Source of the DNA: an uncultured Verrucomicrobiales bacterium
GTDB taxonomy: Bacteria; Verrucomicrobiota; Verrucomicrobiia; Verrucomicrobiales; DEV007
DNA: 64,000 nucleotides
NCBI GenBank assembly: GCA_913058215.1
Contig: CAJXQE010000002.1
Coordinates: 1 to 64,000, forward strand
Direction: 5' to 3'
The stretch's first letter is position 1, and each line of letters opens with the position of its first letter. Below the pieces are notes generated by a model. The model searched no databases. It saw only the letters and a program-made list of their open reading frames with translations, and was not told the DNA's origin. The translations under genes and the position numbers were made by a program. Shown piece after piece: positions 4,356 through 58,985 of the stretch.

Positions 4356-5594
4356 CTATTCCCCAACTCTGACCAGTTCCTTATCGGTTCGGATAAAGAA
4401 AGATCCGTCAGCGACAGCAAATGAACTGAGACCGTGTTCGCCGATGTCGTTCTCGGCGACTTTTTCAAATTCACGACCGGGTTTGATGACGGTGGTGATT
4501 CCGTCTTCATTTTGAAAATAGATGTGGCCTCCGGCATAGACGGGGGACGCGGAGTAGCTGCCTTTGGCGATCCGGCTTTGCCAGATTTCCTCTCCAGTTT
4601 TACCATCGAGTGCTGTGGCGACACTGCTGTCGGCGTTCATGTAAACGATTCCGTCGACAACAATAGGGGAGCTTTCCTTTGGGACGGATTTCTCATATTT
4701 CCAGACGATGTTGCTGTCAGTGAGATCTCCTTTACCGCCGGGCTTGATGGCATAAATGATGGCCTTGTTGAAACCGGAACAAACATAGAGAAGTCCGTCT
4801 GCATAAACCGGACGGGGGACAACGGAGTAGCCTTCGCCGTAGCCCACTCGCCAGATCTCTTTCCCCGACTCCGGGTCATAGGCGACCACTGCGCCGCTTG
4901 CCGGGCTGATGATCTGAGTTTTGCCATCGACTTCAATGGCGAGAGGTGTGGCAAAGGAAAACTTGCGGGAGACCTCGATTTCGCGAGGTGTCTTCCAGGC
5001 AATGCTTCCGGTGGATTTGTCGAGAGCAATGAGAAGCGGGTCTTTAGCGCCATCGGCACTGAAGATGAGATGGTCTCCCACTAGAATGGGAGAGCTTCCA
5101 GTGCCGTGGACAGGTTCGTATTTTAGAGATTCCTGTTTCCAGAGAACTTCGCCGGTCTTGGCGTCGACCGCTGCCGTGCCGTAGTGGCCAAAATGAGCGT
5201 AAATTTTTCCGTCCTCATAGACTGGAGTCGGAGAAGCCTGGCTGTTTTTCTTGTGTTGCTTCACCGTCTCCATCTTGAAGACCTCGGTGTCCCAAACTTC
5301 TTTGCCGTCCGAAGCTTTCAATCCGATCACGCGAAGTGAAGTGTCGCCGCCTCGTTCCACCGCTGTCGTCACATAGACGGCAGCCCCAATCACGATAGGT
5401 GAGGACCAGGCCTGTCCGTCGATTCGGGAAGACCATTTTACATTTTTGCTGCGGCTCCATTCGGTGGGAACCTTGCTGTCGCTGGAATGTCCCATTCCGT
5501 CCGGTCCACGGAACTGAGGCCAGTCCTCTGCGGAGAGTGGTGCGGTCAGCAGTAGTGCTGCGGAGAGGGCGAAGGGAAGAAGAAGTCTATGCAT
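4356..5594 (-). CDS. PQQ-type beta-propeller protein (BamB-like)
   Basis: A 412-aa exported protein. The start was set at the ATG at 5594 because it gives a clean signal peptide (MHRLLLPFALSAALLLTAPLSAEDW); 35 extra in-frame residues upstream do not look like a leader. It opens with the PVC signature DWPQFRGPDGMG and carries repeated propeller blades of the type ALDKSTGSIAWKT, AYDPESGKEIW and ALDGKTGEEIW. In PVC bacteria such proteins occur in many secreted-enzyme loci. PQQ binding is not implied, and BamB-like scaffolding is an alternative. The gene is divergent from the 892-aa orphan at 5727. Confidence 0.88.
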   Translation of the reverse strand: MHRLLLPFALSAALLLTAPLSAEDWPQFRGPDGMGHSSDSKVPTEWSRSKNVKWSSRIDGQAWSSPIVIGAAVYVTTAVERGGDTSLRVIGLKASDGKEVWDTEVFKMETVKQHKKNSQASPTPVYEDGKIYAHFGHYGTAAVDAKTGEVLWKQESLKYEPVHGTGSSPILVGDHLIFSADGAKDPLLIALDKSTGSIAWKTPREIEVSRKFSFATPLAIEVDGKTQIISPASGAVVAYDPESGKEIWRVGYGEGYSVVPRPVYADGLLYVCSGFNKAIIYAIKPGGKGDLTDSNIVWKYEKSVPKESSPIVVDGIVYMNADSSVATALDGKTGEEIWQSRIAKGSYSASPVYAGGHIYFQNEDGITTVIKPGREFEKVAENDIGEHGLSSFAVADGSFFIRTDKELVRVGE

Positions 5595-46289: not shown

Positions 46290-46433
46290 AAGGAATTTTG
46301 AGTAGTGTAGCAAAGCCTGATGTGAGGTCGAACTCAATGGAGAGCCCACCATGATCGCGTCGGTTCCCGCTTCCCTGATCGAGGTGCTGAATCATGTTGA
46401 GAGTCCGCGATGGTCAGCCGCATACTAAGGGCG

Positions 46434-49391
46434 ATGATTTTACGCAAGCTAGCTCTGATTCTTCTGTTGCTGAATTTGTTCTTGTCAGGAACGAGTCAGG
46501 AAAAAGGCGTTAATGCCGATGAGTTTCTGAGAATTCCGCCAAAGTCTCCTGAAGAAGAGCTCGCCAGCTTCAAAGTGAAAGCGGGGTTTCGCCTCGAGTT
46601 GGTCGCATCTGAGCCAATCGTGGAAGATCCTGTGGCGATGTGCTTTGATGAGCAGGGACGACTCTTCGTCGTGGAGTTACATGACCATCAGTATCTTCCC
46701 GATCCGCGCACCAGCAAAGTGAAGATGCTGACTGACACGAATGGAGATGGACGATTTGACGGGTTTGTTACTTTGGCTGAAGGCCTCGGTTGGGTAACTG
46801 CAATCGCACCCTGGGATGGCGGAGTGTTTGTTGGAATGAGTCCGGATCTGATTTATCTCAAGGATACGACTGGAGACGGCAAGGCTGACCTCAGACAAAC
46901 GATCTTCTCAGGTTTCGACATGACGGAGAAAGGGGAGCGCTTAAAGAATTATCATCATGAGCGTTCCATGAACAACTACAATTGGGGACCGGGGAACCGA
47001 TTCTTCTGTGCCGGAGGATTGAATGGTGGTTTTGTCAGAAATGTTGCCCATTCCGGGGAGGCTCCTGTTGTCCTGAACCGACTGGATTTTTCCTTCGACC
47101 CGCGAACTTTGACGATGCGCCCGGAGACGGGATCCAGTCAGCACGGGATGGGGATGGACGACTGGGGGAATCGCTTTCAGACGAGAAACAGTGATCCTGC
47201 CGTGTACCCATCCTATGATCTTCGCTATCGTCAGAGAAACCCCGGGGCTGCCTTGCCACCCGCGATGGTGTCTATTTCAAAACCGGATCCCAAGGGCCCC
47301 GTTTTTCGCTTGAGCCGAACGGAACCCTGGCGCGAAGCCCGGACGAGATTGCGGGCAGCCGGAATTGAAAAGGGCCCGGTTGAAAAAGGCGGATCAGTGT
47401 CAGGATATTTTACGGGCACAGCCGATTCGGAGATCTACCGGGGCGGCGCATTTCCGGAGGAGTATTACGGATCTCTTTTTGTGGGGGAGGTGAGTGAGAA
47501 TATTGTTCACCGCAAAGTGATCCAGTATCCGAAAGACAGGGTTGAGCCTGTTGCTCTTAGGCCGACTGACGAGGCTGATTTTGAGTTTATTGCTTCGAGT
47601 GACAATTGGTTTCGACCTGTTCAGACCATTAATGGTCCGGGTGGAGCTCTCTACATCTGCGACATGTACCGGGAGATTGTGGAGGCCTGGCATACGATTC
47701 CTGAATACATTCGAGATCACCTCGACAGGGATGGAGGAAAGGATAAGGGGAGAATTTGGAAAGTGGTTCCCGATACGGATCGCGGGTCAAAAAAAGTAGC
47801 GGGTTTTGCCGCCGATCCGGATGCCGGTGAGCTAGTAGCCGCACTGTCTTCGGCGGACAGCTGGGTTCGCGATACGGCTTCGAGACTTTTGTATGCAAGA
47901 CAGGATGCGTCTGCTGTATTTGCATTGAAAAGCCTGGCTGCTGATCCGGCATCAGATCCGCGGGCAGCGCTTCACGCTCTTTACGCACTTGATGGCCTAG
48001 GATCCTTGGACATAGAAGTGGTCAAGCCTTCGCTAAAGTCCGGGGAGCCTCAGTTGCGGATTCATGCGCTTCGACTTCTCGAGAAACTGAAAGCGGGTGG
48101 TGTTGATGTTCCCGCCGAACTTCCTTTGAGCCTTGCTAACGATTCGGATCCACGGGTGCTGTATCAATTGGCGTTTACAATGGGGAGCTACCGGCTGTGG
48201 AGTCAGGGACCGTTTTTTGTTCAGATCGGCTCACACTTTCCTGAAGATGAGTGGCTGGCTGCGGCGATTGCTTCATCGACGGATGAGCTGTCGCTTCCGG
48301 CGGTTCTGATTTTATCCCTGGACTCGATGGATCGATCCAGCGCTATCGTGGCTGCTGTTTGCCGTGAGGCTGGGAGGAAGAAAGTTCCGCTACCGGAAGG
48401 CTTTGCCAATTTAACCGGGGATGATCCGGAACGGTGGCTGCCGGTTTTTGCAGCCTACGGAAGTGGGTTTGTAAAAGGAATGGATCCGGAGACTCTCGTC
48501 TCTCTTCGTGAGCGCTGCAGGACGATTGTCGGAGACAGGGCGAAGTCAGTAGAAACGAGAATCCAGTGTCTGCAGCTTTTACCGGTGTCCGGTCTTCCAG
48601 AGAGGGAACTGATATCCATCGTGATGCCACTATTGGGAAGTGGTGAAGAAGAGGCCTTGGAAGGAGCAGCGCTTCAAGTTTTTCAGACTGGTGTAAAAAG
48701 CGAAAAAGGCGGGCAGGCGATTATGGGATATTTGGCGAAATCGAATTCTAAACTTCGTCCTGAACTGATCCATCTGATGACGCGACGTCCGTCATGGTCC
48801 AGTCAGCTTTTGGGTGCGGTAGAAAGTAAGGTTATTCAATCGATGGAAATCTCTCCTGCTGATGCGGCATCTCTTCGGAGACATTCGGACAAAACTATTT
48901 CGAGAAAAGCCACGAAACTCCTGCCTGAACCACCTGATCGGCAGGAAGTGGTGAAGAGATTTCAGCGGGCACTGGCTATCGAAGGAGAGAGCGGTCGGGG
49001 CGAAGTCATATTTCGAGAGCGCTGTATGGTCTGTCATCGGCTGGGTGAAGAAGGGGGACAGGTCGGGCCGGTGATGGGGGAATTTCAGAAGCACGGTAAA
49101 GGACAGGTTCTTTTGAATTTGTTGGACCCGAATAAGACGGTGCAGCCTGACTACATTGGCTACCTCGTAAAACTGAAGAACGGGGAAACCGCAATGGGAC
49201 GTATCCTTGAAGATACGACGGAGGGGCTGACAGTTCGTGACGTAGCCGGGCAGGACCTGAAGATTGGCCGGGAAGATATAGAATCGGTTACTTCGACAGG
49301 TCGTTCACTGATGGCCGAAGGAATTGAGGCGGGACTGGAAGAGCAGAATATTGCGGATCTTCTGCAGTTCATTGCCACCCATTCCCAGTAG
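46434..49391 (+). CDS. PVC-type heme-binding dehydrogenase: propeller, HEAT and C-terminal cytochrome c
   Basis: A 985-aa exported protein; the ATG at 46434 gives signal MILRKLALILLLLNLFLSG. Residues about 35-420 are the PVC membrane-bound dehydrogenase propeller (GFRLELVASEPIVEDPVAMCFDEQGRLFVVE), with calcium-type loops DTNGDGRFD and DTTGDGKAD. Residues about 430-800 are HEAT-like helices. The C-terminal cytochrome domain has CMVCH at 864-868 and the family end GEVIFRERCMVCHRLG to KTVQPDYIGYLVKLKNGE. The role is probably periplasmic sugar or alcohol oxidation with electron transfer to the heme; the substrate is unknown. Confidence 0.92.
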   Translation: MILRKLALILLLLNLFLSGTSQEKGVNADEFLRIPPKSPEEELASFKVKAGFRLELVASEPIVEDPVAMCFDEQGRLFVVELHDHQYLPDPRTSKVKMLTDTNGDGRFDGFVTLAEGLGWVTAIAPWDGGVFVGMSPDLIYLKDTTGDGKADLRQTIFSGFDMTEKGERLKNYHHERSMNNYNWGPGNRFFCAGGLNGGFVRNVAHSGEAPVVLNRLDFSFDPRTLTMRPETGSSQHGMGMDDWGNRFQTRNSDPAVYPSYDLRYRQRNPGAALPPAMVSISKPDPKGPVFRLSRTEPWREARTRLRAAGIEKGPVEKGGSVSGYFTGTADSEIYRGGAFPEEYYGSLFVGEVSENIVHRKVIQYPKDRVEPVALRPTDEADFEFIASSDNWFRPVQTINGPGGALYICDMYREIVEAWHTIPEYIRDHLDRDGGKDKGRIWKVVPDTDRGSKKVAGFAADPDAGELVAALSSADSWVRDTASRLLYARQDASAVFALKSLAADPASDPRAALHALYALDGLGSLDIEVVKPSLKSGEPQLRIHALRLLEKLKAGGVDVPAELPLSLANDSDPRVLYQLAFTMGSYRLWSQGPFFVQIGSHFPEDEWLAAAIASSTDELSLPAVLILSLDSMDRSSAIVAAVCREAGRKKVPLPEGFANLTGDDPERWLPVFAAYGSGFVKGMDPETLVSLRERCRTIVGDRAKSVETRIQCLQLLPVSGLPERELISIVMPLLGSGEEEALEGAALQVFQTGVKSEKGGQAIMGYLAKSNSKLRPELIHLMTRRPSWSSQLLGAVESKVIQSMEISPADAASLRRHSDKTISRKATKLLPEPPDRQEVVKRFQRALAIEGESGRGEVIFRERCMVCHRLGEEGGQVGPVMGEFQKHGKGQVLLNLLDPNKTVQPDYIGYLVKLKNGETAMGRILEDTTEGLTVRDVAGQDLKIGREDIESVTSTGRSLMAEGIEAGLEEQNIADLLQFIATHSQ

Positions 49392-49458
49392 ATTTCAATA
49401 AGGCGGAATTGTGGTGATTCGTTGCGCTGGCCATGGAGAAGGCGATAGTTTCAATGTT

Positions 49459-52400
49459 ATGAGAAATGATTGTTCAAAAGGTGAAAGGCTATCGGTTTTT
49501 CTGATCCTGACTCTCTTGTGTTCGCTAAACTTTTCGCTGGAAGCAGGAGACTGGCCGATGTGGCGTTATGATTCCAGGAGAGGATCTTCGAGTCCCGATG
49601 AGCTTCCCCAGAACCTGGAGCTTCAGTGGACGCGTCAGTTGGCGGCACCGATGAAGGCCTGGCCGTCGACGCAGGAAAAACTGCAGTTCGATTCCCATGC
49701 CGAGCCGGTCGTGATGGGAGAACAGATATTTGTTCCTTCGAGTCGAAATGATTCGGTCACTGCATATGATACGCGGACCGGAAAAGAGAATTGGCGTTTT
49801 TTCACGGGTGGGCCGGTTCGATTTGCTCCAGTCGCCAAAGATGGAAAGGTGTTTTTTAATTCGGACGATGGTTGGCTCTATGCTGTCAATGCGACGAATG
49901 GGAATCTAATTTGGAAAGTGTTTGGAGGCCCGCAGCAACGCTGGTTGATTGGGAATCATCGCATGATCTCAACGTGGCCGGCACGTGGTGGTGTGGTGTG
50001 GCATCAGGATCGGCTCTATTTTGCTGCCGGCATCTGGCCTTTCATGGGAATCTTTGTTCACTCTCTTGATCCGGATTCGGGTGAGATCATCTGGAGCAAT
50101 AGCGGTGATGGAACCAATTACACCGTGCAACCTCATGACGCCGAGTCATTCGCAGGACTGGTACCGCAGGGGCATTTGGCCGCGGAAGGGGGATCCCTGA
50201 TTGTTCCCGGTGGTCGATCCACACCTGGAATTTATGAGACTGCGAACGGGAAGCAGCGTTTCTTTAATTTCGACAAGAGAGCCGGTGGTCACGATGTTGG
50301 AATCACAGGCGATCTGTTTTTTACGGCCGGACATGCCTACGCCTTGAGAAACGGGAATCCAGTGGGTGGCGGAGCACCGGCGATTTTTGATGAGAGTGTC
50401 CTGATTTCTTCGGACCCCAATGCCATTCATGGGCGTTCCACTAAAGTGGCCTTCGACGTGGAAGAAAAAGTCGATCGCAAAGGGAAGACGATTGAAGAAA
50501 TTACTGCCAAATTTTCCGAAGTATTTTCGACGAAATTGAAGGACGCAGCCCCGGGTAAATGGTTTCTCCGGGCGGGCGAGTGTTATTTTTCCGGAGGAGA
50601 AAATCGGATTGCCTCGTATCGAAAGGGGGGCAGTTCACCGGATTGGGAGCAGAAGCTTGAAGGGAATGTAGTGGGGATGCTTGCTGCTGACGACCGGCTC
50701 TTTGTCATGACGGACAATGATGTCATTCATTGTTATGGATCGGAGTCGGTATCCTCTATCGGTAATCACAAACTGCAGTCAGTGTCGCTTCAGTCAGGAA
50801 AGGATGAATGGGCGGAACGTGCAGCCGAAATTCTTGATGCAAAAAAGAATCGGACTGGGTTCGCTTTTGTTCCCGGGATCGGGAGTGGAAGGTTGATCGA
50901 GGAGTTGCTGGTCCAGTCTGATCTTCATGTCGTGGCGATGGACAATGACGTGGCGAAGGTCGAGGCGATTCGTAAAAAGATGAGCGACGCGGGTCTTTAT
51001 GGTGGCCGGTTCTCTGCGATTGAAGGTGATTTTGAAAAGGATGCGATAGCTCCCTATTTTGCCAATGTGATTGCGAGCGAAGACGGAGGCTGGAGTCGAT
51101 CGGACGTGGTGGCAAAAGCTTACGAATGCCTCCGGCCCTACGGCGGGGAAATGTGGCTTCCGAAGGCAAAGGGAGGAAATGACGTTCACGCGAATTTGGA
51201 TTTGGTGAATGCCGGCCGGAGAAGTGAAGATGCGTATTCAGTCATTGTCAGGGAGGGAGCTTTGCCGGATACCGATGACTGGACCCATCAATATGGAAAC
51301 GCGGCGCAGACTGTCGTTTCCCGGGATGGAAGAGTGAAAGCCCCTTTCGGAGTGTTATGGTTTGGTGGTCCTTCTCATGAAAAAGTGCTGCCACGTCACG
51401 GGCACGGTCCATCTCCGCAGGTGGCGGGCGGTCGACTCTTCATTGAGGGGCCGGACTCGCTGAGGGCCGTCGATGTTTATACCGGTCGACTCCTTTGGGA
51501 GAAAGATCTGAAGGGGCTGGGAACCTACTACGATACGACCAGTCACTTTCCGGGAGCCGGCGAAATCGGGAGCAATTATGTATCCTTACCTGAGCGGATT
51601 TATGTGGTCTACGGTCGTGAGATTCTGGAGCTTGATTCTGCGGATGGTGAAACATTGAAAACCTTCAGCTTGCCGGAGAAGGGTGGTAAAGAATCACCCT
51701 TCTGGGGATTCGCCAGTGTGTCGGGAGACTATCTTGTGGCGACGTCCACCCCGATTGGTATTGATCTGAAAAAGGAGAAAGATGCGAAGCCTTCCGTGGA
51801 AAATTCAGGAGTCCCCGTCATTCCCCGAAACGCAGAATGGAGTTACCTGGTCGGGGGGAAGCCCAGTGCTGGTTGGACCAAGCCCGGGTTTCGAGTTAGT
51901 GCAGATTGGAAATCGGGTCGTGCCGGTTTTGGATATGGTGACAAAGATGATAAGACGGAGTTGGAAATGCGGGGCAAGCATGTTCGCGTTTCCATACGCC
52001 ATGAGTTTGAGGGTAAACTCTTGGCGGATGCGGAAGGGCTCAGTCTTGGGATTTCATTCGATGACGGTTTCGTAGCCTCTCTAAATGGCATTGAAGTAGC
52101 GAGGTCTTCGGTAAAAGGAGACCCTGACGACCATCCCAAAATATCGAGTCATGAAGCCGACGGCCTGGAAGCCTTTGAGCTGAAGGACTGGAAGAAAGTG
52201 GTTCGCCCCGGAATAAATGTCCTTTCGATTTCGGGTTTCAATGTGGGTTCATCGAGTAGTGATTTTTCACTTGATCCAATGCTGACTGCGGTCGGCGCCA
52301 AACCGGACAAAAAGCCGAGCCCCCCAAAGTTGACCGGAATTGAGGAACGCTTGTCATCGACACGCTATGCATCAGGAAGCCGGCGGCTGGTGGTTTTCAA

Positions 52401-53661
52401 TCGTCATACAGGCGAGAAGCTCTGGTCTCGTGATGCGGTATTCAATTTCCGTCACAACAATATTTCACTGAGTGAGGACAAGCTCTTCTGCATCGATCGA
52501 TTAACGGACGAACGGGCGGCTGCACTTTCACGGCGTGGAGTTGAACTGGAAGGGGAGACGGCTCTGTATGCTCTGAACCTGAGAAATGGTGATGTTCTCT
52601 GGAAACGCCACCAGGATGTTTTCGGTACCTTTCTGAATTACTCCGCGGAGCATGATATCCTTCTTCAAGGGGGCAGTTCCTATCGCGATCGGGCGTCGGA
52701 TGAAGTGAAAGTGGGACTGATGGCTCTTCGTGGAAAAGACGGGGGTGTCCTGTGGCACCAGCCTAAGAAGGAATACAGCGGGCCGTGTCTCCTTTGGAAA
52801 GACCAGGTCATTACCAATGGAGCGGGCGGTGCGGCCTTGAACATTTTGACGGGAGTCGATTCGGGTTGGGCCTATTCGCGAATGTATGGCTGCAATACTG
52901 CGGTGGGAAGCGATCACCTGATGACCTTTCGTTCCGGTGCTGCCGGATTCTTCGACCTGGCGAATCACTCAGGAACAGGGAATCTTGGCGGTTTTAAATC
53001 AAGCTGCACAAACAATTTGATTCCTGCGAATGGCGTTCTCAATGCTCCTGATTACACGAGGACTTGCAGCTGTGCCTATCAAAACCAGACTTCCCTGGCA
53101 TTGATCCATATGCCGGAAGCCGAGTTCTGGACTTATGGAGGAAAGTCGAACCCGAAGCGCCTGGGAATCAATTTTGGTGCACCGGGCGATCGTAGGTCCG
53201 CCGAGGGGACATTGTATCTCGAGTACCCGGACGTCGGTGGAAAATCAGAAAGTCTGGATCTGGAACTTAAAGGAGACGGAATCATCTACCACCGGGAGCA
53301 TGCTTCTCTGATCGACAGCGGAGACCTCCGATGGGTGGCTGCGTCACAAGCCGAAGGAATCAATGAATTGAAAGTCACGGTTCCCGGTATGGAGAAGGAA
53401 GGTGCAACGAAGGCCCGGGTGAAATTGATCTTTTACGAATTCAAAGACGTCGATCCAGGTGATCGGGTTTTCACCATTGGAATGCAGGGAAGAGATGTTG
53501 CTGTTAATTTTGATATTGTTTCTGAAGCCGGTGTCGGAGAATCGCTGGTGAAGGAATTTGAAACGACTCTCTCGAACGGAGAACTTTCTCTTTCGCTGAG
53601 GGACGCGGAAAGCAAACTGCGCCCAATTCTTTCCGGAGTGGAAATTATTCTGGAGGAGTGA
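49459..53661 (+). CDS. 1400-aa PQQ-type propeller protein with inserted methyltransferase-like domain
   Basis: The start at 49459 gives a Sec signal (about residues 1-29), then DWPMWRYDSRRGSSSPDELP. A first propeller (about 30-440) has AYDTRTGKENWRF and AVNATNGNLIWKV blades. Residues about 447-600 form a Rossmann segment like class I SAM methyltransferases: FAFVPGIGSGRLIEELL, HVVAMDNDVAKVEAI and GDFEKDAIAPYFANVIASE. A second propeller follows (VDVYTGRLLWEKD), interrupted by a jelly-roll segment (about 790-935), then VFNRHTGEKLWSRD, NLRNGDVLWKRHQ and a C-terminal beta domain. SAM is not expected outside the cytosol, so the inserted domain may be a binding relic. The last 17 bases overlap the convergent ceramidase gene. 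Confidence 0.9.
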   Translation: MRNDCSKGERLSVFLILTLLCSLNFSLEAGDWPMWRYDSRRGSSSPDELPQNLELQWTRQLAAPMKAWPSTQEKLQFDSHAEPVVMGEQIFVPSSRNDSVTAYDTRTGKENWRFFTGGPVRFAPVAKDGKVFFNSDDGWLYAVNATNGNLIWKVFGGPQQRWLIGNHRMISTWPARGGVVWHQDRLYFAAGIWPFMGIFVHSLDPDSGEIIWSNSGDGTNYTVQPHDAESFAGLVPQGHLAAEGGSLIVPGGRSTPGIYETANGKQRFFNFDKRAGGHDVGITGDLFFTAGHAYALRNGNPVGGGAPAIFDESVLISSDPNAIHGRSTKVAFDVEEKVDRKGKTIEEITAKFSEVFSTKLKDAAPGKWFLRAGECYFSGGENRIASYRKGGSSPDWEQKLEGNVVGMLAADDRLFVMTDNDVIHCYGSESVSSIGNHKLQSVSLQSGKDEWAERAAEILDAKKNRTGFAFVPGIGSGRLIEELLVQSDLHVVAMDNDVAKVEAIRKKMSDAGLYGGRFSAIEGDFEKDAIAPYFANVIASEDGGWSRSDVVAKAYECLRPYGGEMWLPKAKGGNDVHANLDLVNAGRRSEDAYSVIVREGALPDTDDWTHQYGNAAQTVVSRDGRVKAPFGVLWFGGPSHEKVLPRHGHGPSPQVAGGRLFIEGPDSLRAVDVYTGRLLWEKDLKGLGTYYDTTSHFPGAGEIGSNYVSLPERIYVVYGREILELDSADGETLKTFSLPEKGGKESPFWGFASVSGDYLVATSTPIGIDLKKEKDAKPSVENSGVPVIPRNAEWSYLVGGKPSAGWTKPGFRVSADWKSGRAGFGYGDKDDKTELEMRGKHVRVSIRHEFEGKLLADAEGLSLGISFDDGFVASLNGIEVARSSVKGDPDDHPKISSHEADGLEAFELKDWKKVVRPGINVLSISGFNVGSSSSDFSLDPMLTAVGAKPDKKPSPPKLTGIEERLSSTRYASGSRRLVVFNRHTGEKLWSRDAVFNFRHNNISLSEDKLFCIDRLTDERAAALSRRGVELEGETALYALNLRNGDVLWKRHQDVFGTFLNYSAEHDILLQGGSSYRDRASDEVKVGLMALRGKDGGVLWHQPKKEYSGPCLLWKDQVITNGAGGAALNILTGVDSGWAYSRMYGCNTAVGSDHLMTFRSGAAGFFDLANHSGTGNLGGFKSSCTNNLIPANGVLNAPDYTRTCSCAYQNQTSLALIHMPEAEFWTYGGKSNPKRLGINFGAPGDRRSAEGTLYLEYPDVGGKSESLDLELKGDGIIYHREHASLIDSGDLRWVAASQAEGINELKVTVPGMEKEGATKARVKLIFYEFKDVDPGDRVFTIGMQGRDVAVNFDIVSEAGVGESLVKEFETTLSNGELSLSLRDAESKLRPILSGVEIILEE

Positions 53662-57656: not shown

Positions 57657-57669
57657 TCTGAAATTCAGA
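57657..57669. terminator. Dyad at convergent gene ends
   Basis: TCTGAA-A-TTCAGA is a perfect 13-base dyad between the stops of the SGNH gene (57655) and the DUF1080 gene (57665). The one-base centre makes it a poor hairpin on its own; a protein site or weak two-way terminator is possible. Confidence 0.25.
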
Positions 57670-58477
57670 GGCGGGTAACTTTGATGTCCTTCCAGAAGAC
57701 GCGTGCACCTTTGGGCCAACCGTTTCCGCGATGAACCTGCAATCCGATCTTACCGGATTCGGAGATCACTTTTGCCGCCTTTTCTTTGTCGAATGAGGGG
57801 TTGGTGGTCTTTGCGGCATCAAAGCGACAGACCTTGAGTCTATTGATCCAGACTTCAATGACCGGAAACTTTCCTTTTCCGGTGCATTTAATATTGATCC
57901 GGTTCCAGTCCGCAGGTTTCCACGCAGCGAGCCATTCTTCGGCGGTGCAGGTTTCTTCGTAAACTCCGTCCGGCCAGTCCTTGGCGCGGGCGTCAGCTTC
58001 AGTTTTTAATGCAGGCTTTCCTTCTTCGATTCGCGAGAATGAAAAGGGACGAAAGGGCGTGCTGTAGGCCTTTGTCTCCAGACGGACATGTCCAACGTTG
58101 CCATTGTCATGATGATCCACATAGATTTGCCAACCTTCGCCTTTGTCGTTGGTCCGTAGAAAAATTCCGCTGCAGGGGCCCCAGTCAGGTCTGATGGAGA
58201 TTCCCATTTCAAATTCACTGAAGGATTCACTGGAAAGCAGTAGGCCACCTTCCCCTGAACCGGGCGGATCCTGTTCCCCGAAAAGCACGCCTTCTTCAGT
58301 GACACCCCAATGGCCACCCTTCCCATGGATTCCGGGCTCGGGTTGCGTGTGCCATCCGCTGAGACTCTCCCCATCGAAAAGAGAGTAGGAGTGATCCTCC
58401 GCTTGCGCCCGTTTGTATAAAGGTGAAGCGAGAGTTAGAACAATAATTAGTATTCCTTTGGGAAGCGATGGAAGCAT
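57665..58477 (-). CDS. DUF1080 (3-keto-disaccharide hydrolase-like) protein
   Basis: A 270-aa exported protein; the ATG at 58477 gives signal MLPSLPKGILIIVLTLASPL. The jelly-roll family core is clear: YSLFDGESLSGWHTQ, HWGVTEEGVLFGEQD, EFEMGISIRPDWGPCSGIFLR, WNRINIKCTGKGKFPVIEVWINRLKVC and GKIGLQVHRGNGWPKGARVFWKDIKV. The family contains hydrolases of 3-keto-glycosides and many binding domains. It is 38 bases downstream of the lipoprotein gene at 58515. Confidence 0.9.
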   Translation of the reverse strand: MLPSLPKGILIIVLTLASPLYKRAQAEDHSYSLFDGESLSGWHTQPEPGIHGKGGHWGVTEEGVLFGEQDPPGSGEGGLLLSSESFSEFEMGISIRPDWGPCSGIFLRTNDKGEGWQIYVDHHDNGNVGHVRLETKAYSTPFRPFSFSRIEEGKPALKTEADARAKDWPDGVYEETCTAEEWLAAWKPADWNRINIKCTGKGKFPVIEVWINRLKVCRFDAAKTTNPSFDKEKAAKVISESGKIGLQVHRGNGWPKGARVFWKDIKVTRL

Positions 58478-58514
58478 TCCCCAGAATACGCAAAGTGCTA
58501 CGCGGGATCGAGAA

Positions 58515-58985
58515 TTACTTTTTCGCAATGTAGGGAAATTTCTCTACGATCTCTTCGAATATTTCGTCGGTGGACGCCTTGATTACAAAAATGTAAGCAC
58601 CGTTCTGCCAGGCCTTAAATCGCCCCGATTGTCCACTGGCCCGGGCACTCCAGCGACCATTGATTTTACCGCTCATTTTGCTGCCGTACCCTTCCTCCAT
58701 CTGGGGAACAACAGTCTCCTTAAAATAGGCATCAAGAGCCGTTTCATTGCCCGACTGAATCATGAGGATCGAAGCCTTTTCGCCAAACTCGAAGCGGGCA
58801 CCATGATAGGTGTCGGGATCGAGTTCAAGCCGAACCGCTCTCATCGCTTCACCGCTGATCTCCGAAGGAACAATGTCTGAGTATTTTTCCTCGCCGGTCG
58901 GAGGAGCGAATTCAGTATTGTAGCTCCCTCCGCATGCGGTGAGAAGAAGGGTAGCGGTGAAAAGAAGAAGGAGTCGGTGATTCAT
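58515..58985 (-). CDS. Small lipoprotein of unknown function
   Basis: A 156-aa lipoprotein (signal MNHRLLLLFTATLLLTACGG, Cys18). The mature part has alternating beta/helix character (ALDAYFKETVVPQM, GRFKAWQNGAYIFVIKAS). No family recognised. It is followed by the DUF1080 gene on the same strand and preceded by the PhoD gene, with a hairpin-forming gap. Confidence 0.75.
   Translation of the reverse strand: MNHRLLLLFTATLLLTACGGSYNTEFAPPTGEEKYSDIVPSEISGEAMRAVRLELDPDTYHGARFEFGEKASILMIQSGNETALDAYFKETVVPQMEEGYGSKMSGKINGRWSARASGQSGRFKAWQNGAYIFVIKASTDEIFEEIVEKFPYIAKK

Follow-up and report, generated by a model that had tools for sequence, protein, structure and literature searches.

What is a methyltransferase-like domain doing in the middle of a protein that appears to leave the cell? 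The question is raised by an open reading frame at positions 49459-53661 (+ strand) of the window, by which is meant the whole stretch of 64,000 nucleotides that was analysed. SAM is regarded as restricted to the cytoplasm. The frame begins with an ATG at 49459 (there is also an in-frame GTG at 49411) and encodes 1400 amino acids. It runs from a signal-like N-terminus through a PQQ-like propeller, the methyltransferase-like domain and a second propeller, which a beta-rich insert divides, to a malectin-like end (Table 1). This whole architecture is not covered by any single matching Pfam or NCBIfam model.

Table 1. Features of the 1400-residue protein in the window, and of stand-alone methyltransferases at related loci
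Feature	Coordinates	Strand	Basis
Sec-type signal peptide, residues 1-30	49459..49548	+	Hydrophobic core; same place in 72/90 testable rows; putative cleavage before DW31
Propeller 1, eight-bladed BamB/PQQ-like, residues 31-430	49549..50748	+	PQQ_2 match, structure matches of model
Methyltransferase-like Rossmann domain, about residues 450-598	50806..51252	+	Profile matches, AF2 models, Foldseek, VIA-align
Motif I: Val471 replacing the acidic residue, then PGIGSG	50869..50889	+	Motif position and 92-row alignment
D495, acid ending beta 2	50941..50943	+	D/E in 82/92
GD523-524 after beta 3	51025..51030	+	D524 in 49/92
RPYGG 559-563, family signature	51133..51147	+	R559 90/92, P560 92/92, G563 90/92
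Propeller 2, first part, WTH motif, residues 600-775	51256..51783	+	Boundaries from predicted strands
Beta-rich insert, about residues 785-955	51811..52323	+	Strands in AF2 model; in 12/92 aligned proteins
Propeller 2, second part, four conserved Cys (1145, 1183, 1203, 1205)	52330..53109	+	Alignment and model
C-terminal malectin-like carbohydrate-binding domain	53110..53658	+	Pfam Malectin match; boundaries approximate, deduced
Stand-alone methyltransferases, intact SAM motif, lipobox or Sec signal	L071 2602-3369; L083 within 2020-2919; L270 about 4682-5416

Structure prediction confirms the middle segment as a separate class I methyltransferase fold between two beta-propellers. An alignment of 92 rows was made from the window and 91 homologous segments, taken from 118 loci and filtered for length and duplicates. 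The AF2 model built from it for residues 430-612 has a mean pLDDT of 92.7, and its order of strands and helices is that of a class I methyltransferase down to the last two strands, that is, a Rossmann sheet with a C-terminal antiparallel hairpin. The profile of the segment finds the methyltransferase 3dlc (E 4.4e-7), and so does Foldseek with the model (E 6e-10), the best PDB matches listed being methyltransferases. The same is true of VIA-align, where all 1000 of the 1000 chains listed have Z of at least 5 and the best is 2o57 (Z 17.8, 155 residues, rmsd 2.9). Methyltransf_25 matches 67 of the 92 segments at E<=0.1, and the window segment with 24.7 bits (E 4e-5), slightly below the cut-off of 27. 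When residues 31-1217 are modelled together (pLDDT 92.0, pTM 0.86), the helices and strands of the segment are unchanged and it is positioned outside propeller 1. The first propeller, in turn, resembles complete propellers: PQQ_2 matches the whole protein with an E of 6e-30, and VIA-align with the 31-1217 model, which covers propeller 1 only, aligns model residues 1-400 with closed eight-bladed propellers such as Rv3035 (9p3g, Z 30.7), tetrathionate hydrolase (Z 27.6) and BamB (about Z 26). Since the segment keeps its own structure in the full model and the propeller ahead of it resembles a complete eight-bladed propeller by itself, the segment is not part of the propeller. A chance resemblance, or a piece of propeller with no methyltransferase fold, might be suspected from the window segment alone being below the Pfam cut-off, but is contradicted by the AF2 model, the structure matches and the profile matches, and its probability is negligible.

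The positions that bind SAM in such enzymes are in a different state from the fold. The window has GIGSG for GxGxG and keeps D495, the acid of beta 2; the acid of motif I at the end of beta 1 is a Val, and is acidic in only one of the 92 aligned segments. Ordinary methyltransferases of the same genome were used as controls (35 Methyltransf_25 matches, 30 of them with a locus, of which the 25 non-propeller proteins with the motif covered were kept; L127, L136, L141 and L144 were left out as propeller proteins and L143 because the motif is absent). The motif-I acid is kept in 21 of these 25 and absent in 4. All three glycines of GxGxG are present in 42/92 segments (the first in 84, the second in 50 and the third in 58), the beta-2 acid in 82/92 and D524 in 49/92. 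The original prediction had read PGIGSG, AMDND and GDF as methyltransferase motifs, and these lie at residues 472-477 (50872), 493-497 (50935) and 523-525 (51025). The proposed check, whether SAM-contact residues are conserved among homologues, has a split outcome, with the motif-I acid lost, the glycines partly kept and the beta-2 acid retained.

The best-conserved residues are mostly found away from the usual SAM positions. R505 (91 of 92), R517 (87), Y533 (87), R559 (90), P560 (92) and G563 (90) are near invariant, and a ranking of 118 columns over 130 rows is led by R505, P560, G467, G515 and G473, then G563 and R517, with D495 38th and the acid column 85th. From the 92-row counts, the controls and the column ranking it follows that motif I has been loosened, except for its first glycine, while other positions stayed fixed. 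As R505, R517, Y533 and R559-P560-GG are near invariant, the fold is retained while the SAM pocket decays; that these residues form an interface is a guess. In the 24 members where Trp replaces the acid, G475 is found in 3 and G477 in 5, yet R505, Y533, R559 and P560 are found in all 24 and R517 in 23.

These counts suggest that the window domain has lost SAM binding. With GIGSG, the Asp of beta 2 and GD all in place, it may still bind SAM, SAH or another nucleoside to some extent. An alternative explanation, close to the nucleotide- or sugar-binding module that the original prediction had suggested, is that the Rossmann pocket has been re-used for another ligand, such as a nucleotide, a nucleoside or a sugar derivative. 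Such re-use would account for the beta-2 acid outlasting the motif-I acid, and for members of a second architecture (below) that often keep the glycine loop and in which His replaces the acid in 27 of 50 rows. In the Trp subgroup, however, the glycine loop is mostly lost too, which makes a single common ligand for the whole family unlikely, and we give this explanation a minor share of the probability.

Export of the protein is probable from the N-termini across the family. A hydrophobicity rule alone (a 12-residue mean KD of at least 2.0, or at least 1.8 in a wider set) classes the N-terminus of the window protein, MRNDCSKGERLSVFLILTLLCSLNFSLEAG, as signal-like. Of 90 testable rows, 72 have a signal-like stretch ahead of the mature start, versus 1 of 25 control methyltransferases; of the 18 misses, about eleven look, by eye, like signals slightly under the threshold, and the rest have cut, long or non-signal-like N-termini. 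In the wider set, with the looser threshold and complete N-termini, 98 of 113 members with the domain in mid-position and 48 of 55 with it in early position are signal-like. Twin-arginine signals are rare (7/136), and export through that route with a bound cofactor was set aside for this reason. The original prediction was borne out in its main proposal, a methyltransferase-type Rossmann domain between two propellers of a protein with a Sec-type signal. Of the two outcomes that it had named as speaking against it, neither appeared: the segment is a separate domain in the 31-1217 model and does not lie within the propeller, and most homologues have signal-like N-termini.

The clearest indication that export would include the domain itself comes from the second architecture, in which other paralogues have the methyltransferase-like domain directly behind the signal peptide, with a sequence pattern such as GGLIVHLGCGDGKLTAALR...VHGLDTD. 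Here R505 is found in 48 of 50 rows but R517 in 17, and R559 is not comparable as the 3' part of the alignment is gappy. The classes follow the position of the domain in frames read from stop to stop, which may have put a few truncated frames or ordinary methyltransferases in the wrong class.

Propeller 2 is nearly always preceded by the domain. The domain was looked for in ten genomes reached via homologue loci, and the beginning of propeller 2 in nine of these; the comparison covers 73 domain places and 50 propeller starts in the nine genomes, leaving out two domain pieces of G392 and the propeller starts of G000, G114 and G347 (the last being the same places as in G394). A methyltransferase-like domain lies directly upstream of the propeller 2 start in 49 of the 50 places, and a detected propeller start follows 49 of the 73 domains; many of the other 24 are early-position proteins, with a propeller perhaps too distant for the profile, or small frames.

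The explanation that we favour, with reasonable though far from full confidence, is that the protein is exported and that the domain between its two propellers is a pseudo-methyltransferase, forming an obligate part of propeller 2. A class I methyltransferase would have been fused long ago ahead of the PQQ-like propeller of an exported protein, and nearly all descendants, including the window protein, would since have lost the acid with which motif I binds the methionine moiety of SAM. The fold, we propose, was retained because it had become an obligate component of the propeller next to it; its role would be structural, as a rigid docking or linking domain, possibly forming part of a ligand pocket. 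Among the observations that count against this reading are the glycine loop, beta-2 Asp and GD that the window domain keeps, the 4 of 25 controls that lack the motif-I acid themselves and the existence of eight fusions in which the acid is kept.

These eight are found among 139 rows with the domain at position 260 or later (one more, L193, belongs to the early-position set; L209, an acidic but non-propeller protein, was removed from the list by hand). G475, G477 and the acid of beta 2 are likewise kept in them, and the six that have a complete N-terminus are all signal-like, one of them barely at the threshold. In addition there are stand-alone methyltransferases of exported type with the motif IDLGSGPG or IDIGGGPG, which adjoin a propeller-methyltransferase gene in three genomes: two Phycisphaerae (L071 and L083), where a lipoprotein-type protein with IDLGSGPG is encoded just upstream, and an Omnitrophota genome (L270), where the protein has a signal peptide and is encoded just downstream. 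Three proteins of this type reach 57-71 bits with Methyltransf_11, for which the cut-off is 21. In a fourth genome (L269) the stand-alone gene has no such neighbour within the fetched stretch, and in 199 genomes drawn around G390 a match (E<=1e-15) was found in 2, neither with a signal peptide by eye.

The acid-retaining fusions and the three neighbouring stand-alone proteins are what could be expected if the domain were still a SAM-dependent methyltransferase, acting outside the cytoplasm with SAM from lysis or export. We consider this quite unlikely, as the motif-I acid is missing in the window domain and in all but one of the aligned segments, we know of no SAM pool outside the cytoplasm, and the twin-arginine signals that could carry a pre-loaded cofactor are so few. 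A broader version is a long shot as well: in Planctomycetes, Verrucomicrobia and their neighbours, the acid-retaining fusions and the stand-alone secreted or lipoprotein enzymes might transfer methyl groups from SAM outside the cytoplasm, with the degenerate propeller-bound domains as non-catalytic partners, in the way that METTL14 is the non-catalytic partner of METTL3. One propeller-methyltransferase with an intact motif I (L256, 163-4158) has CHB_HEX_C and 3-keto-disaccharide hydrolase domains at its end, and a tie to 3-keto-glycoside breakdown is possible for this protein.

A tree of 56 rows, partly a random sample of those available, gives these relatives an order. Ordinary methyltransferases fall outside (99/98), and the stand-alone exported proteins form one group with a signal-less 3dlc-like protein (89/62), sister to all propeller-bound domains (99/96). 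Within the latter the basal group holds seven acid-retaining fusions and one that lost the acid (87/86, moderate support), and two changes of acid state are required. FastTree with 175 rows gives the same outline.

Outside the cytoplasm the protein of the window probably binds or acts on carbohydrate, by way of propeller 2 with its beta-sandwich and malectin-like domains. This is deduced from the malectin-like domain, where Pfam Malectin scores 29 bits, above the gathering cut-off of 23 (best stretch residues 1320-1384), from a LamG domain in the relative L242, and from the 3-keto-disaccharide hydrolase family, which occurs as a fused domain in L256 and as a separate gene in the window at 57665-58528. 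The beta-rich insert, counted as present in rows with at least 150 residues there, had been described as a jelly roll; the insertion is there in the model, and a jelly-roll fold is putative. The four Cys of propeller 2 (about 52891-53073, the last two as CxC) are conserved in at least 90% of 91 rows and are candidates for disulphides, or for a metal or active site.

The gene neighbourhood at 80 homologue loci points to no substrate. Immediate neighbours (73 upstream and 66 downstream proteins, each cut at 500 amino acids) have no family in common, the commonest being ABC_tran upstream (6/73) and ThiF, Esterase and Metallophos downstream (2/66 each). In the window a DUF7133 protein with CxxCH (46410-49391) lies directly upstream on the same strand, about 70 bases from the gene start; CxxCH is found in 3 of 139 neighbours, so this protein is not a conserved partner.

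Several known systems share parts of this picture. The 3dlc-like class I methyltransferases (Methyltransf_25/_11) have the same fold and motif order, give the best PDB profile and Foldseek match, and in the tree the 3dlc-like protein and the stand-alone exported enzymes cluster with the propeller family, apart from ordinary methyltransferases. The window family differs from them in being apparently exported and fused to propellers, in the lost motif-I acid, and in the extra signatures GLYGxR and LRPYGG. BamB, Rv3035, YxaL and tetrathionate hydrolase have the eight-bladed PQQ-like propeller in common with propeller 1 (Z 25-31), but the window protein is well under the equivalog cut-off for BamB (TIGR03300, 51.6 versus 285.2) and has extra domains. 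PQQ repeats are also shared with PQQ-dependent dehydrogenases and "acido-empty-quinoproteins", where the window protein is again below the cut-offs (TIGR03075 37.0 versus 480.05, and 31.7 versus 650 bits). METTL14 and TRMT6 are intracellular pseudo-methyltransferases, in which an inactive methyltransferase fold is kept as partner or scaffold; the window domain would be inactive likewise, but sits in apparently exported bacterial proteins. The titles and abstract openings returned by a literature search contain no account of such an exported, propeller-borne methyltransferase-like domain. A large and old family of apparently exported methyltransferase folds, mostly decayed and with a few intact, makes methyl transfer outside the cytoplasm, past or present, a testable idea, and raises the question why a dead enzyme fold persists on a secreted propeller across many phyla and what its job is outside the cell.

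Roughly two hundred related proteins carry the domain. In the phylum of the window, 34 of 387 genomes match the domain profile at E<=1e-5. A scan with the whole protein found, in the best 80 of 191 relatives, members from Planctomycetota, Verrucomicrobiota, Omnitrophota, Hydrogenedentota, Latescibacterota, KSB1, Sumerlaeia, Acidobacteriota, Armatimonadetes, Bacteroidales and others; these are mostly MAGs, so single taxonomic placements may be binning errors. The genome of the window has eight domain matches, one of them partial. At two loci of this genome (L213 2850-2868 on contig C226 and L216 16-34 on contig C218) the contig ends bear adapter, presumably Nextera transposase sequence, and the frames end in it; this sequence is absent from the window itself. 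The 5.1 Mb genome G391, from which L082 comes, has 22 matches to the domain model, a strong expansion of paralogues.
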